IMG/VR virus record: IMGVR_UViG_3300048592_000436
Location: 1-52,646 of that record
Length of the DNA: 52,646 nucleotides
Source of the DNA: a virus
Direction: 5' to 3' (one strand)
A program made the translations under genes and the position numbers. The notes beneath the pieces are model-generated. The model worked only from the letters and a program-made list of their open reading frames with translations. It was not told the origin of the DNA and searched no databases. Of this stretch, positions 3,401 to 52,646 are shown in pieces (position 1 is the stretch's first letter; every line of letters begins with the position of its first letter).

Positions 3401-3591
3401 GCATCGTCTCCAGGGTGGTAACTTTCGCCACGCGCCAAGTCGTCTAGGCTATGACCGCTGTAGGGTGCGCCGTTCTCGACTAGACGGATAATTGCTAGCG
3501 TAGCCTCGTTTGCCTCGTGTACGGTGGCACAACTGAATGTGCGAATTGCGGTAAAGATTTCTTCTCGCAATCGGCTGGCCATTAATGTCAT
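3397..3591 (-). CDS. Hypothetical early protein, 64 residues
   Basis: The protein is a small mixed-charge helical protein ending in GESYHPGDDA. Two in-frame ATGs exist (3591 and 3582); 3591 follows a short AGG site. It is the first gene after the hairpin that separates it from the exported protein gene 3643-4161. Function not recognised. Confidence 0.65.
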   Translation of the reverse strand: MTLMASRLREEIFTAIRTFSCATVHEANEATLAIIRLVENGAPYSGHSLDDLARGESYHPGDDA

Positions 3592-3604
3592 CCTGTCACC
3601 GGGA

Positions 3605-3620
3605 GCGGGTTATACCCCGC
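3605..3620 (-). other. Intercistronic hairpin after the exported-protein gene
   Basis: GCGGG (3605-3609) pairs with CCCGC (3616-3620) around a 6-base loop. It lies in one of the few gaps in the leftward operon (3592-3642). It has no U-run on the minus-strand transcript, so RNA processing or stability is as likely as termination. Confidence 0.35.
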
Positions 3621-3642
3621 CCCCGCCTTTCGTGGTTGAGGT

Positions 3643-4161
3643 TCAGTTCGGCGCTCGGACCAAGCCCATGGCGTTGAGAACGCGCCATGCGTGCTGATCC
3701 ATCGTCGCGAGGGAAATGATCGCGGCGCGGCGCAGTTCCGGCGTCGGCTGGTTGAGCGCGTCGAGGATCATGTAATGCGTCTCGCGGTTGAGGCAGTTCT
3801 GGTCGATCGGGGAGACGTGGAAGCCTGCGCCGCCGAGGGGAACGGACAGGGACAGGCCCTGCGGCTTGATGCAGGGCGCGGTGCCCTGAGCTGCACCGAC
3901 GCCAAAGCCCGGAGCCTGATTGCGGTCCTCGATGTTGACGCTCTGCGTGTTGGTCTGCCGGTTCGCCTGCGACTGGCCCTGGATTTGGCCCTGCCCCTGA
4001 TGCTGCCCGGCCACGGCGGTAGCGGAGTTGCTGTTCAGGTTGGTGTTCCGATTGTCGACGCTGGCGCTGGACTGCGGGCCGTTGTTGTTGCCGTTGCCCC
4101 TGTCGGTGGCGAATGCCGGGGCGGCGAGGGCGAGGATCAGTGCGGTGGTCATCAGTTTCAT
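3643..4161 (-). CDS. Exported Asn/Gln-rich early protein
   Basis: This 172-residue protein has a clear signal peptide (MKLMTTALILALAAPAFA, cleavage near residue 18). A low-complexity region follows, rich in Asn, Gln, Ser and Gly (for example GNGNNNGPQSS and GQGQIQGQSQANRQ). The C-terminal 80-residue segment is more ordered, with two cysteines (APCIKPQG and QNCLNRET). The start at 4161 is set by an AGGAGG site. An exported protein in an early operon is unusual; altering the host envelope or excluding other phages is a reasonable guess. The gene is bounded by two hairpins (3605-3620 and 4180-4196), so it may be a separately acquired unit. Confidence 0.78.
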   Translation of the reverse strand: MKLMTTALILALAAPAFATDRGNGNNNGPQSSASVDNRNTNLNSNSATAVAGQHQGQGQIQGQSQANRQTNTQSVNIEDRNQAPGFGVGAAQGTAPCIKPQGLSLSVPLGGAGFHVSPIDQNCLNRETHYMILDALNQPTPELRRAAIISLATMDQHAWRVLNAMGLVRAPN

Positions 4162-5048: not shown

Positions 5049-5060
5049 GTGGCGGGGCCG

Positions 5061-5333
5061 TTAGGCCGCCGCCTCTAGCTGGTTGCGCTGAACGAAGTAA
5101 CGGGCGCTGGGGCGATCATCCGGGCCATCAATCATCCGCCACGGGTCAAGGCCCATGCGGTGCGCCTCGTCGCTGACCCACGCCCAAAGCTGCATGTCGT
5201 GATCAAGACCGACAGTCATGTACCAGTCTGCTGTGACTTCCTGCCGATTGCAGCGTTCCGCGACGCTCTGAGCGTAGTCGGTAACTTCGCGGAAACCGCT
5301 GGGCCAGATTTTCGTGCTGTGCTGGATCATCAT
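5061..5333 (-). CDS. Hypothetical early protein under repeat promoter
   Basis: This 90-residue soluble protein is the first gene after the leftward promoter at 5357-5385. Its ATG at 5333 follows a GGGAGAG site. A second in-frame ATG is the next codon. The sequence is rich in Trp, Arg and Asp (WAWVSDEAHRMGLDPWRM) and shows no recognised motif. A separate promoter suggests it and the genes below need a higher dose. Confidence 0.7.
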   Translation of the reverse strand: MMIQHSTKIWPSGFREVTDYAQSVAERCNRQEVTADWYMTVGLDHDMQLWAWVSDEAHRMGLDPWRMIDGPDDRPSARYFVQRNQLEAAA

Positions 5334-5356
5334 CGTCTCTCCCTTGCTACACCCCA

Positions 5357-5385
5357 AACATAACCGCACGGCGCACGCATTGCAA
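5357..5385 (-). promoter_or_regulatory. Leftward early promoter 2 with operator-like repeat
   Basis: Read on the minus strand: -35 TTGCAA (5385-5380), a 17-base spacer and -10 TATGTT (5362-5357). It lies about 24 bases before the start at 5333. The surrounding 60 bases match those at 5815-5865 nearly base for base. A palindrome TGCGCCG-CA-CGGCGCA overlaps the upstream side (5394-5409), a plausible repressor site. Confidence 0.7.
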
Positions 5386-5387
5386 GC
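5364..5387. repeat. 24-bp direct repeat, copy 1
   Basis: The 24 bases are identical to 5398-5421, have one mismatch with 5828-5851 and align with 10917-10940. The element spans the spacer and -35 of the leftward promoters, so it is part of a shared control sequence rather than a coding repeat. Confidence 0.8.
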
Positions 5388-5397
5388 AGAAAATGCG

Positions 5398-5421
5398 CCG
5401 CACGGCGCACGCATTGCAAGC
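5398..5421. repeat. 24-bp direct repeat, copy 2
   Basis: This is an exact second copy 34 bases from the first. It carries the TTGCAA box, but at the right spacing only GCATTT as a -10, so it is probably a spare operator or dead promoter. It joins directly onto the duplicated gene-start fragment at 5421-5458. Confidence 0.8.
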
Positions 5422-5796: not shown

Positions 5797-5820
5797 CTCA
5801 ATCTCCCTTGCTACGCCCCA

Positions 5821-5849
5821 AACATAACCGCCCGGCGCACGCATTGCAA
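5821..5849 (-). promoter_or_regulatory. Leftward early promoter 1
   Basis: On the minus strand: -35 TTGCAA (5849-5844), a 17-base spacer and -10 TATGTT (5826-5821). It is the same promoter as at 5357-5385 with one change in the spacer. It sits between the HNH gene end (5874) and the gene starting at 5796. Confidence 0.7.
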
Positions 5850-5873
5850 GCGGAAAATGCGCCGCATGGCAAA

Positions 5874-10883: not shown

Positions 10884-10909
10884 TGTCATTCTCCCTTTGC
10901 TCCCCCGCA

Positions 10910-10938
10910 CATTAAACCGCTCGGCGTACCCGGCGCAA
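10910..10938 (-). promoter_or_regulatory. Main leftward early promoter (PL-like)
   Basis: On the minus strand: -35 TTGCGC (10938-10933), a 17-base spacer and -10 TTAATG (10915-10910). The element aligns with the two promoters near 5370 and 5835, with the conserved AACCGC, CGGCG and GCAAGC-AAAATGCGC blocks. It is divergent from the rightward promoter starting at 10972. Confidence 0.65.
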
Positions 10939-10971
10939 GCGAAAAATGCGCACGCCGGCAAAAAATATCGC

Positions 10972-21566: not shown

Positions 21567-22165
21567 AGACCACCGAATATCTCAGAGGATACGAGGATGC
21601 GACGCGAGCGGCGGCGGAAACCGCGAGGGGCTGGGATGAAGAGGTCGTCGCCCGGTCGATCGAGTTGGAGGCCAAGAAGCACGTCGCGACCCTGACCGCC
21701 GAGATCGAAGCCCGCGCCGAAGCCACGCGGGAAATGTCACGGCTAGGGCAGGAGTGCGATGGCGCGATCGTTCGAGAGGCTGGGCGCGATTGGTCAGCCG
21801 AGCCTGTGTGGAGCCGCAACATCAGCATCAATGACCCGTTGCCGCAAAGCGCAGGCGGGACGTGGAAGGCCTTGTCTGAATTCGAGGTGATCCCGGACGG
21901 CCCGGTCTTGCTCTACTTCGGCGCCCGCCAATGGCGGACGGCGGATGGGGCCGCGGCACAACTGGACACGGTCAGGGATTATGTGGAGCGCGCCGGGGCG
22001 GCCTTCGCGGAAGCCGGCGACATCTTCGAGGCCGGCACCGCGCATAGTGTGTGGGAAGACTGGCGTTTCCCTTGCAACGTGCCAACGCATTGGATGCCGA
22101 TGCCGGCGGCCCCTGAAAATGCCAAGTGGACCGCTACCGACAGCGGCGCGGAGGGTGGGCTATGA
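21563..22165 (+). CDS. DUF551-like protein with coiled coil
   Basis: The 200-residue protein has an N-terminal helical region with Ala/Glu heptads (residues 1-60). A C-terminal part ends in WEDWRFPCNVPTHWMPMPAAP, the closing phrase of DUF551-type phage domains (T-H-W-M-P-x-P). Such domains are common in early phage genes of unknown role. Overlaps both neighbours by ATGA. Confidence 0.7.
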   Translation: MKTTEYLRGYEDATRAAAETARGWDEEVVARSIELEAKKHVATLTAEIEARAEATREMSRLGQECDGAIVREAGRDWSAEPVWSRNISINDPLPQSAGGTWKALSEFEVIPDGPVLLYFGARQWRTADGAAAQLDTVRDYVERAGAAFAEAGDIFEAGTAHSVWEDWRFPCNVPTHWMPMPAAPENAKWTATDSGAEGGL

Positions 22166-22533
22166 AGCCTCTCGGACACAAGGCATATGGGTCAATCCCG
22201 CACCTGCCAATGTCTCGGCTGGGACCGGGTGATTATCACTGCCACGAGGGCCAGGCGCGGATCGCGACCGAAACTCTGCGGGACAGGCACGATCGGGTCA
22301 TTGTCACCGAGAAACTCGACGGCTCGAATGTAGCGGTTGCGAACGTCGGCGGCGAGATTTTTCCGCTCACGCGCGCAGCGATCGACCCGGTAGAGGGCGC
22401 GGTGTGGCGCGTAGAGAGGCGCGGCAAGTTCGATTTCATGGCGAAGTTCGTCCGGCACGACAAGTCGGATGGCAAGTACCTCGCCAGCGTGACGGGCGGC
22501 GATCCGGTTCCTCTGGCGGTGGTGTGGAAATAA
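22162..22533 (+). CDS. RNA-ligase-like protein lacking its middle
   Basis: The first part, with VIVTEKLDGSNVAVA near residues 45-60, is the nucleotidyltransferase motif I (K-x-D-G) of an RNA/DNA ligase. The last 55 residues (VERRGKFDFMAKFVRHDKSD then GKYLASVTGGD) resemble the end of phage RNA ligases. The usual middle, with motifs III to V, is absent, so the 123-residue product is about half the expected length. The joint falls after LTRAAIDP. It may have lost ligation but keep the lysine that takes AMP. The family call is by motif; the deletion call is inference. Confidence 0.6.
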   Translation: MKPLGHKAYGSIPHLPMSRLGPGDYHCHEGQARIATETLRDRHDRVIVTEKLDGSNVAVANVGGEIFPLTRAAIDPVEGAVWRVERRGKFDFMAKFVRHDKSDGKYLASVTGGDPVPLAVVWK

Positions 22534-22537
22534 AACG

Positions 22538-23050
22538 ATGCCTAAAGCTCGCCGCCGCCCCGCCCCTCTTCCACCGCTGATGCCCCCTACGCCACAAGCG
22601 GCGGCCAAGGGCGCATACGAGGTGACGCGCCTGGAAAAGAACGGCGACCGCATCGCCATCAACGCCCATGTCTCGCCCCTCCGCTATCTGGCCGGGAAAA
22701 AGACCATCACACAATGGGAACGCGAGGCGGGCGAGCATTTCGAGGCAGCGCACAGGCTGGCGTGGGGCGGCGGTGGAACAAATGTCATAGCCAAGATGAT
22801 GGTGCTCGGCGTAGGCGGCATTCGCGGCGGCGGCATAGACGAGGGCCTGCACGTCAAGCAGTGGGCGGAGGGCAGGATTGACCAGATACGCCAGCTTGCG
22901 GGCTTCTCGGCTTATTCCATCCTTCTGGACGTAGCCGTCCACCAGCTATCATTCGGGCGCGGGCGTGGCAAACGGGCGTTGTCCAACCTGGAGCTACTGC
23001 GGGCGGGGCTTGGCGCGGCGGCGGACGTGTTCGGGGTTGAGCGGCGGTAA
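22538..23050 (+). CDS. DUF6456-like protein, candidate regulator
   Basis: The 170-residue protein has a pattern like DUF6456: INAHVSPLRYLAGKKTITQW, EREAGEHFEAAHRLAW, a Gly-rich loop, then LDVAVHQLSFGRGRGKR and a final helix. This family often sits late in early operons of alphaproteobacterial phages and is linked with gene regulation by position. Its location just upstream of the late promoter makes it the best candidate for a late activator or antiterminator in this genome, an inference only. Confidence 0.6.
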   Translation: MPKARRRPAPLPPLMPPTPQAAAKGAYEVTRLEKNGDRIAINAHVSPLRYLAGKKTITQWEREAGEHFEAAHRLAWGGGGTNVIAKMMVLGVGGIRGGGIDEGLHVKQWAEGRIDQIRQLAGFSAYSILLDVAVHQLSFGRGRGKRALSNLELLRAGLGAAADVFGVERR

Positions 23051-23080
23051 AATAATTCCGCACAATGCCGGAAAACCCCC

Positions 23081-23109
23081 TTGCATGTGCGGCAGGTGCC
23101 GGATATATA
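23081..23109 (+). promoter_or_regulatory. Promoter before 23136 gene
   Basis: TTGCAT (23081-23086), 17 bases, TATATA (23104-23109), close to the bacterial consensus. A transcript starting near 23116 would carry the gene at 23136 with its AAGGGAGAC site. Confidence 0.68.
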
Positions 23110-23135
23110 TAGGGCATCAGCAAGGGAGACGACAG

Positions 23136-23378
23136 ATGAGCGCAGCAACAGAAGCAATGGTGGCGGAAATGGCCGAAATCGTTCGCGCCGAGGGCATACT
23201 GTACCCGGCATTCCTTCAGCCCCGTCGCGGCGGGATCAGCGCGACGGTATCGGCAGCGGTTCGGATCGCCAAGAAGCGCGGCTTGATCGTCGAAGGCGGC
23301 AAGGACGGCTGGGGGAAACGGTACTACGTGGCGCCAGTCCCGCCCGCGACGCACCCGGCGCCCGGCAACATCAACTGA
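23136..23378 (+). CDS. Hypothetical protein, 80 residues
   Basis: The start at 23136 follows AAGGGAG. The N-terminal half is helical (ATEAMVAEMAEIVRAEG). The second half contains SATVSAAVRIAKKRGLIVEG with GWGKRYYVA, which looks like a winged-helix end. It has its own promoter, so it may be a middle-class regulator. No family confirmed. Confidence 0.65.
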   Translation: MSAATEAMVAEMAEIVRAEGILYPAFLQPRRGGISATVSAAVRIAKKRGLIVEGGKDGWGKRYYVAPVPPATHPAPGNIN

Positions 23379-23422
23379 AGGCGGCGGCCTAACGGCCCCG
23401 CCCATACAGAGGGAGAGACGAG

Positions 23423-23656
23423 ATGAATATCGACTTTGAATCCGCCGCCCGAAAGGCCCTGCCAGACATGGCCGATGGCGATTACTACATGCGGTTCACC
23501 GGCTACTGCCATGACCTGATCTGTACGCACGACACCAAGGCGGAGGCGGAGAGGCAGGCGCAGGCAACGCACAGCCAGACCGGCGAACGCACGGCCGCGG
23601 GGCCCTACTACAGCAACGGAAAATGGACGTGGGCGTCCGTATCCGTCGCGCCGTGA
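23423..23656 (+). CDS. Hypothetical protein, 77 residues
   Basis: A GAGGGAGAG site precedes the ATG. The protein has a helical start, YCHDLICTHDTKAEAERQAQ in the middle and an aromatic end (PYYSNGKWTWASVSV). No recognised function; it overlaps the next GTG by GTGA. Confidence 0.65.
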   Translation: MNIDFESAARKALPDMADGDYYMRFTGYCHDLICTHDTKAEAERQAQATHSQTGERTAAGPYYSNGKWTWASVSVAP

Positions 23657-23841
23657 CCACCCCCCCATCCACCCGCGCCGAACGTCTCACAAAGGCCGGC
23701 TTCGTCTGGATTGAAGGCTGGGTCCGCGAAGCCGACGCCCCCGCATTTCAGCGCGCAATCGCCAAGTGCCTGCCGCGTGTCGAGGAACTGGCTGCGCAGC
23801 CCCGAAAGCGAGGGGCGCCGAGAAGGGGAGAACGGAAGTGA
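23653..23841 (+). CDS. Small basic protein, 62 residues
   Basis: GTG at 23653 in the GTGA overlap is preferred to the upstream in-frame ATG at 23623. The protein has a WIEGWVREADAPAFQRAIAK helix and a very basic tail (KRGAPRRGERK), suggesting nucleic-acid contact. It is the last gene before the late promoter. Confidence 0.6.
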   Translation: MTTPPSTRAERLTKAGFVWIEGWVREADAPAFQRAIAKCLPRVEELAAQPRKRGAPRRGERK

Positions 23842-23866: not shown

Positions 23867-23895
23867 TTGACGACTTGCCGCTTGCTCGCTAACCT
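23867..23895 (+). promoter_or_regulatory. Candidate late promoter
   Basis: TTGACG (23867-23872), 17 bases, TAACCT (23890-23895). The expected start is near 23902, about 15 bases before a terminator stem. It is the only promoter seen before the terminase and structural genes. Confidence 0.72.
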
Positions 23896-23916
23896 TTCGG
23901 CAAGATGAAGTGTTGC

Positions 23917-23946
23917 GCCCGGGGGGAACCTCGGGCTTTGTTGTTT
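23917..23946 (+). terminator. Leader terminator of the late transcript
   Basis: GCCCGGGG (23917-23924), loop GGAA, CCTCGGGC (23929-23936) form an 8-bp stem with one G-U pair and a GNRA-type tetraloop, followed by TTTGTTGTTT. This is a strong factor-independent terminator only about 15 bases downstream of the predicted start, giving a 45-base leader RNA. Full late expression would need antitermination. Confidence 0.8.
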
Positions 23947-23987
23947 CCGGGCAGTGAAAAAGTTTCACCACATTCAGGATCGGGGAT

Positions 23988-24332
23988 ATGGGCAAGGTCG
24001 GCGGAGCAAGGCCGGGGGCTGGACGAAAGCCGGGCAAGGTAAGCGCCGCGAAGCGCGCACTGGCGGAAATGGCGAAGGACTACGCCGAGACGGCGCTGGC
24101 GACCCTTGTCGAGGTCTGCACCAGCAAGGAGGCGGCGGACAGCGCGCGGGTAGCGGCGGCGAACGCATTGCTTGACCGGGGCTACGGCCGACCGCCGCAG
24201 GCCATCCAGCACACCGGCACAATCCAGACCGAGGACGTGACCAAGCGCGATGCGGAGTTGTTCGCCAGCAGAATGGCTAGCCTCGCAGCCGTTGGAGTTT
24301 CGGAAGAGGGAACTGAGCCGGTTAAGCACTGA
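23988..24332 (+). CDS. terS: Terminase small subunit
   Basis: The 114-residue protein starts GKVGGARPGAGRKPGK, the usual basic Gly-rich N-terminus of phage small terminases. A helical HTH-like part (KRALAEMAKDYAETALATL and SARVAAANALLDRGYGRPP) follows. It would recognise the packaging start and hand DNA to the large subunit, whose gene overlaps it by 83 bases. Identity is supported by the neighbour. Confidence 0.85.
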   Translation: MGKVGGARPGAGRKPGKVSAAKRALAEMAKDYAETALATLVEVCTSKEAADSARVAAANALLDRGYGRPPQAIQHTGTIQTEDVTKRDAELFASRMASLAAVGVSEEGTEPVKH

Positions 24333-25569
24333 GGCGCAAGCCGAACTGCTCTGGCGCTGGCGCGGCTGGTGGGCAAGGCCGAACCAGCTCGCCCCGGGCG
24401 GCGACTGGTCAACGTGGCTGGTGCTCGCGGGCAGGGGCTTCGGCAAGACGCGCGCCGGCACGGAATGGCTTCGGGAGCAGTGGAAAGCCGGGGCAAGCCG
24501 GATTGCCATCGTGGCGGAAACCGCGGCCGACGCGCGCGAGGTTCTGGTTGAGGGTCCGAGCGGCATCATGGCCGTCTCGCCGGAGCACGAACGGCCGACA
24601 TACGAGCCGTCCAAGCGGCGCCTGACCTGGCCCAACGGCGCGGTGGCGACGACCTACAACGGGACGGAACCGGATCAGCTTCGCGGCCCGGAGCACGACA
24701 CGGCGCTCGTCGACGAGCTTGCGAAATACACCTACGCGCAAGAGACCTGGGACAATCTGCAATTCGGTATGCGCCGAGGCGTTCCGCGCGTGATGGTCAC
24801 GACTACCCCGCGACCCATTCCGATCATCCGGGCTCTGATGAAAGACCCCTCATGCGTGGTGACGCGGGGTAGCACGTTCGACAACGCGGCGAACCTCCCC
24901 GCGCAGTTCCTGGCGCAGATACGGGCGAAGTACGAAGGAACCCGGATAGGCCGGCAAGAGCTATTCGCGGAAATCCTCGATGACGTTCCCGGGGCGCTCT
25001 GGACGCGCGACATGCTGGAACAGGCCCGTGTCAAAGCGGCGCCGGAACTGCGGCGGGTCGTGGTTGCTATCGACCCCTCAGGCACGCGGGGCGGGGATGA
25101 AGGCGCCGACGACGTGGGCATAATTGCGGCTGGCGTCGGAATTGATGGCCGCGGCTATGTTATGGCGGATCGCACGTGCAACCTGTCCCCGGCGGGCTGG
25201 GGGCGGCGCGCGGTTGATCTGTATCACGAGCTAAAGGCCGACAGGCTGGTGGCGGAACGGAACTTCGGAGGGGCGATGGTCGAGCATGTGATCCGCACCA
25301 CCGATCCGAAGGTGGCATATCGGGAAGTCACGGCCAGCCGCGGCAAGATCGCCCGGGCCGAGCCGGTCGCGGCGCTCTTCGAGCAGGGCAAGGTCTCGCT
25401 TGTCGGCGGGTTCGCCCCGCTCGAAGATCAGCTCTGTATGATGGCCCCGGACGGCTACATGGGCGAGGGATCGCCTGACCGCGCCGACGCGATGGTCTGG
25501 GCTCTGACGGACCTGATGCTCGAAGCGCAGTCCTCGACGGCCTCCGGTCGCGTTGTCGGGCTGATCTGA
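24250..25569 (+). CDS. terL: Terminase large subunit
   Basis: The 439-residue motor protein has Walker A LAGRGFGKTRAG near residue 60 and an acidic motif TALVDELAKY (DE) near 155. The C-terminal nuclease domain carries VVVAIDPSGTRG near 272, with the metal-binding Asp, and SPDRADAMVWAL near 410. It pumps DNA into the procapsid and cuts it. Start at 24250 is the ATG found in frame, overlapping the small subunit by 83 bases. P22-like coat and scaffold genes follow. Confidence 0.93.
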   Translation: MRSCSPAEWLASQPLEFRKRELSRLSTEAQAELLWRWRGWWARPNQLAPGGDWSTWLVLAGRGFGKTRAGTEWLREQWKAGASRIAIVAETAADAREVLVEGPSGIMAVSPEHERPTYEPSKRRLTWPNGAVATTYNGTEPDQLRGPEHDTALVDELAKYTYAQETWDNLQFGMRRGVPRVMVTTTPRPIPIIRALMKDPSCVVTRGSTFDNAANLPAQFLAQIRAKYEGTRIGRQELFAEILDDVPGALWTRDMLEQARVKAAPELRRVVVAIDPSGTRGGDEGADDVGIIAAGVGIDGRGYVMADRTCNLSPAGWGRRAVDLYHELKADRLVAERNFGGAMVEHVIRTTDPKVAYREVTASRGKIARAEPVAALFEQGKVSLVGGFAPLEDQLCMMAPDGYMGEGSPDRADAMVWALTDLMLEAQSSTASGRVVGLI

Positions 25570-52281: not shown

Positions 52282-52646
52282 CCGCGACCAAGGCGAAGAC
52301 ACATTTCATCGGGATGTTCCTCGCGACGGCTCTTTTCCTCGTGGTCGGGGCCGGCGGCTATGCGTTGGTGGACCGGCAATTCCCGGCAAGCTACTGGTAT
52401 TCCCTGGACAGCGTGATCGTCACCGGCCCGGACGGAGGTGCGGTGGTGCGAGGCGAGCCGGTCTTCGTGGCTGTGCAGCGGACGGTCAGTCGGAATTTTA
52501 TCGGGTCATACGTTACGACCGTTCGCGCGCTGCCGAACCTCCACACGATTTGCAGCGGGCCGGAGGGAGGGCTGGCGGTCGTGTATCGGGCCGATGCGAA
52601 TTTGCCGGAGCCCCTGACGCTAGGTTATTGGACAGAGGGCGCCAAG
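52278..52646 (+). CDS. 5' part of membrane-anchored lysis-region protein (continues at base 1)
   Basis: ATG at 52278 in an ATGA overlap starts KAKTHFIGMFLATALFLVVG and GAGGYALVDRQFPASYW, an N-terminal anchor of about 20 hydrophobic residues. The frame is open to the end and joins base 1 after the 162-base overlap, ending at 450. The outer part is probably exposed to the periplasm. See the entry at 1-450 for the rest. Confidence 0.75.
   Translation, partial: MTATKAKTHFIGMFLATALFLVVGAGGYALVDRQFPASYWYSLDSVIVTGPDGGAVVRGEPVFVAVQRTVSRNFIGSYVTTVRALPNLHTICSGPEGGLAVVYRADANLPEPLTLGYWTEGAK
52485..52646. repeat. Terminal direct repeat, right copy
   Basis: Matches 1-162 with one silent difference (C at 52520, T at 36). 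A difference in the overlap means that two template molecules vary at this base, or that one copy has an error. Confidence 0.9.

Follow-up and report, generated by a model that had tools for sequence, protein, structure and literature searches.

The region between the early genes and the packaging genes of this phage carries a promoter-like sequence, a pause-like motif, and an intrinsic terminator in a row, with a putative regulator gene upstream. The window (the whole 52,646-nt virus record IMGVR_UViG_3300048592_000436) has 64% GC and a 162-nt terminal direct repeat (1–162 and 52485–52646, 99% identical), indicating that the record is probably a complete, circular or terminally redundant genome. 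Its large terminase is closest to those of viral contigs and of prophages in rhizobia and other Alphaproteobacteria, from which we infer an alphaproteobacterial host. The features considered here are:

22538–23050, + strand: DUF6456/phrog_21451-family protein (170 aa), proposed GafZ-like antiterminator (‘Q’)
23867–23872, + strand: −35 hexamer TTGACG of the late promoter
23873–23889, + strand: 17-nt spacer, a candidate antiterminator-binding element with direct repeats CTTGCCG (23874–23880) and CTTGCTC (23881–23887)
23890–23895, + strand: −10 hexamer TAACCT (weak)
23901–23906, + strand: −10-like element CAAGAT at −1 to +5 (putative sigma-dependent pause element)
23902–23946, + strand: predicted 45-nt leader RNA, from 7 nt after the −10 to the end of the T-run
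23913–23919, + strand: TTGCGCC, pause-like motif, with the RNA 3′ end predicted at C23916 (+15)
23917–23936, + strand: intrinsic terminator hairpin, 8-bp stem with GGAA loop
23937–23946, + strand: T-rich tail TTTGTTGTTT
23988–24332, + strand: first late gene, probable small terminase subunit
24250–25569, + strand: large terminase subunit (terL), of the same family as GTA terL

The terminase assignments rest on profile matches and position. The first late gene matches phrog_15261 (E 8e-18, function unknown) and, weakly, the small terminase family phrog_2538 (E 0.008). The large subunit matches PF03237 (E 2e-21) and PF17289 (E 2e-10), and tblastn aligns it to terL genes upstream of GTA_TIM hits with E 1e-84 to 1e-122.

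The promoter and terminator proposed in the original prediction are present. The hairpin GCCCGGGG-GGAA-CCUCGGGC forms eight pairs, seven of them G-C, and is followed by the TTTGTTGTTT tail. It is the only hairpin of ≥7 pairs/6 GC with a T-tail on either strand of the window, where 0.3 of this strength are expected per strand in Markov copies. The 45-nt leader from the predicted start at A23902 folds at −17.6 kcal/mol (z −2.9; 1 of 200 shuffles as good). In contrast, the promoter alone is not above chance; its −10 retains only T1, A2, and T6, and a consensus scan did not list it. What makes the promoter significant is the recurrence of the whole array at a fixed spacing in relatives. The original prediction missed two elements of this array, the −10-like CAAGAT and the pause-like TTGCGCC.

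To determine whether the layout recurs, we collected 80 viral and 55 genomic loci with related terL (referred to below by L numbers). A −35-like hexamer followed within 110 bp by a strong hairpin occurs in 6 independent cases in the 147 kb just upstream of terL, 11 times in 1208 kb elsewhere on the strand, and 19 times in 1355 kb on the other strand. The distance from −35 to stem was 48–59 bp each time.

The 170-aa protein could be placed in a family only by iterative profile searches. Single-sequence Pfam, PHROG, and NCBIfam scans gave no hit for it, including to the curated PF20057 and phrog_21451 models and, in a Pfam-A scan up to E 1, to the lambdoid Q families (PF06530, PF03589, and PF06323). 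Likewise, tblastn in phages and a close search of viral contigs found no relatives, blastn of the region found nothing, and tblastn with three relatives in phages found nothing. However, a gene upstream of the array in L007, L008, and L018 matched DUF6456 and/or phrog_21451; these were the only three of 50 records to match phrog_21451. Using these and genomic phrog_21451 members as seeds, an iterative profile reached the window protein at E 1.9e-10 before it had entered the profile. A rebuilt profile of 54 members without it gives E 3.9e-10 (40.4 bits over residues 5–170), as compared to 14.0 bits for the best of 1000 shuffles and 7.8 bits for the next window ORF. The members are very divergent, and 6 of 15 aligned relatives match PF20057 (best 1.6e-7). 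In every terL locus where a member was found, it lies upstream of terL on the same strand, 0.3–2.7 kb away. Some genomic family members (including L145, L167, and L190) are listed with one in-frame stop in the aligned stretch, as if decaying prophage genes.

The family includes the C-terminal domain of GafA-type GTA activators. The alignment of phage members finds matches in 35 of 245 Rhodobacterales genomes, mostly proteins of 350–400 aa (370–400 aa for the GafA-type proteins). Two of these were scanned; both have DUF6456 at their C-terminus (E 3e-55 and 6e-52) and an N-terminal helix-turn-helix, the make-up of GafA. GafA hits are annotated as DUF6456 or helix-turn-helix proteins (PMC9638019). 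Caulobacter crescentus GafZ corresponds to the C-terminal part of GafA and was shown in 2024 to be an antiterminator. A binding element between −35 and −10 and antitermination with NusA, NusE, and NusG were shown or supported for GafZ, which reads through terminators including E. coli rrnB T1 (PMC11150451). Of the candidates named in the original prediction, the DUF6456-like protein is the best one, but the antiterminator is not wholly new because the same domain in GafZ was shown to act as one. The small ORFs at 23136–23841, also put forward as candidates, are not constant in relatives and are not needed. The small protein at 23136–23378 (MSAATEAMVAEM...) resembles by eye an ORF (MNTATEAKLNEIL..., about 3570–3870) at a similar place before the same promoter array in L056, which lacks a recognised DUF6456 gene.

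Directly after the family gene, we found TTG-N17-(−10)-N17/18-(T/A)TGCGCC in Acetobacteraceae, rhizobial, and viral loci. This element lies 24–93 nt after the stop of the family gene in about eight independent loci, and 0.7–0.9 kb after it in the window and L046. We aligned 16 sites from alphaproteobacterial phage or prophage loci on TGCG, keeping one per group of close relatives (L007/L090, L127/L133, and L125/L135 share lineage and were grouped). The sites show the −35 at 45–48 nt before TGCG, a −10-like hexamer with A at −14 and T at −10 from the pause base (7 of 16 exactly, 5 at a shift of one; binomial p 1e-6), G at the −10 position of the pause consensus in 10 of 16, and TGCG with the break after the C. 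A hairpin and T-run usually follow. A matrix built without the group of the window scores its site at 21.8 bits, reached by 8 other places in 3.14 million positions; four of these (L121, L124, L112, and L168) are themselves correctly placed elements, lying after a family gene or shortly before terL. Among 64 family loci not used to build the matrix, 6 have a site of ≥14 bits within 120 nt after the gene where 0.3 are expected, and L168, L159, L192, and L188 continue into a hairpin and T-run. L188 is the annotated Bradyrhizobium elkanii USDA 76 prophage ppBeUSDA76-2, in which the family gene is 555 bp before terL. The sites were first found by eye and by a loose pattern, which the leave-out and held-out tests offset only in part.

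The association between gene and element is not universal. About a third of terL loci with a family gene lack a clear TTGCGCC element (e.g., L048, L092, L094, and L134), L056 has the element without a recognised family gene, and L090 has the element but no hairpin. In the window, the family gene lies 817 nt before the promoter with small ORFs between, whereas in most relatives it is adjacent. Most chromosomal copies in the rhizobial sample lack the element, as does a copy in a 1.5-Mb, 40% GC genome of the same order (L150). GTA terL promoters did not show TTGCGCC at this spacing. Roseobacter phage RDJL Phi 1 (HM151342) encodes a DUF6456 protein (gp38 by length, 22762–23694) far from terL, beside a CtrA-like gene and without the element; its role may differ.

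These data bear on two rival readings of the array. The hairpin might be the ordinary terminator of the early operon, which needs no antiterminator, and the promoter-like sequence beside it might be chance or a constitutive late promoter that tolerates an inefficient terminator. This is unlikely, as it would not explain the fixed-distance −35, −10-like, and TTGCGCC elements in unrelated phages, nor the constant presence of the DUF6456 gene upstream. Alternatively, the array might make a stable 45-nt small RNA with its own regulatory role, protected by the hairpin, while another promoter serves the late genes. We consider this more doubtful still. The leader has no Rfam match, and leader sequences in relatives share no more than the pause motif and the hairpin shape, so no conserved small-RNA function is visible. 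Moreover, the only strong terminator in the window would still block late genes.

The −10-like and pause-like elements resemble the cis-signals of known antitermination systems. In Q systems, a −10-like element and a binding element between −35 and −10 are the two required sites (PMC6606751). In the AlpA-regulated alpB promoter of Pseudomonas aeruginosa, the −10-like CACGAT lies at exactly −1 to +5, the position of CAAGAT here, and is needed for antitermination (PMC9371919). By analogy with these systems and with the ZBE of GafZ (PMC11150451), we conjecture that the direct repeats in the window's spacer may bind the antiterminator. Inverted repeats occur in the L007/L090 and ppBeUSDA76-2 spacers, although no sequence is shared. 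Notably, L090 (6359–6500) and L007 (509–600) keep the spacer inverted repeat TTCTGnCAGAA, the −10-like CATGGT, and TTTGCGCC while the −35 and the hairpin diverge, which suggests that the spacer repeat is a binding element.

Predicted structures give a tentative link to phage-21 Q (21Q). The window protein models as six helices with a disordered N-terminus (mean pLDDT 77.7, core above 90). Against a viral structure library, its best match is a phage DUF6456 protein (E 0.003, probability 1.00). Foldseek searches of the PDB gave no significant E-value for this model or for that of the L008 relative. A second comparison with the PDB places 21Q first for the window protein, but weakly (Z 4.1). The L008 model gives 21Q in the first five rows (Z 7.4–7.7, 99–108 residues), then sigma region 4 domains, then AlpA (Z 5.8), and nearly all rows at Z 5 or more are of these kinds. 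A Z below 8 is not proof of homology and can reflect a common arrangement, but the two models agree and the match spans more than the helix-turn-helix. The authors of the GafZ study saw no structural similarity of GafZ to known antiterminators beyond a sigma-like helix-turn-helix (PMC11150451).

Taken together, comparative sequence evidence supports the Q-type switch of the original prediction, and we propose that this is a GafZ-like, Q-style late control switch of an alphaproteobacterial phage (probability roughly 0.8, in the absence of transcription data or proof of read-through). In this model, polymerase with sigma-70 starts at about 23902. Sigma region 2 re-binds CAAGAT and, with the TTGCG pause sequence, holds polymerase at about +15. 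There, the DUF6456-family protein, bound to the spacer between −35 and −10, loads on polymerase near the RNA exit channel. Loaded polymerase runs through the hairpin and T-run at 23917–23946 and on through the packaging and structural genes; without the protein, it stops after the 45-nt leader. Promoter use, pausing, loading, and read-through are inferred from lambda/21 Q, AlpA, and GafZ.

The DUF6456 protein could instead be a transcriptional activator that recruits polymerase to this weak promoter, as proposed for GafA through RpoZ, with the hairpin a side feature or an attenuator. GafA was shown to act through the omega subunit (PMC9638019), and the predicted fold contains a sigma-region-4-like part. 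However, activation alone leaves a hairpin and T-run directly after the start unexplained, the pause-like motif and −10-like hexamer match antiterminator loading sites, and GafZ reads through terminators. We therefore regard this reading as improbable.

The switch differs in several respects from its closest known counterparts. GafZ, of the same sequence family, serves a GTA together with GafY and IHF, and its tested terminator lies after the first gene, whereas here the terminator follows the start directly. Q of phage 21 and lambda Q likewise have a late promoter, a sigma-dependent pause element, a terminator close behind, and a regulator gene upstream of the late genes, but their sequences are unrelated to the window protein and the host here is inferred to be an alphaproteobacterium. 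The alpBCDE promoter shares the −10-like position and a downstream intrinsic terminator; AlpA serves a cell-lysis operon and has no known sequence relation to this protein. The title of a study of a Bartonella GTA (Korotaev et al., eLife 2025, RP105142, as cited in PMC13236601) describes antitermination joining loci of phage origin, which may lower the novelty of a phage–GTA link.

Late control of alphaproteobacterial phages is poorly known, and the proteins described here are annotated as unknown function. The array (−35, −10-like, TTGCGCC, and hairpin) offers a DNA signature for late promoters across several orders. It is tempting to speculate that DUF6456 proteins are the general late antiterminators of alphaproteobacterial temperate phages, with the 21Q/AlpA fold and loading at a conserved −10-like plus TTGCG pause, and that GafA and GafZ are domesticated descendants of this phage switch. 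One fold would then link 21Q, AlpA, and GTA control; the GafZ authors left open a structural link from GafZ-type proteins to phage-21 Q. We consider this broader reading about as likely as not.

Other features of the window are also of note. The gene at 22126–22533 encodes a short protein with the KLDGSN motif of RNA ligases (PF09414 E 4e-4, phrog_38169 E 1e-28) but is only 135 aa, possibly a truncated or split ligase. A 31-nt inverted copy, 90% complementary, links 5051–5081 and 23372–23402, 18 kb apart, at the end of a small ORF near the late switch. Finally, three related 69-nt repeats (5338–5406, 5802–5870, and 10891–10959; 94% and 67% to the first) read on the minus strand like TTGCAA-N17-TATGTT promoters and may drive leftward early genes.
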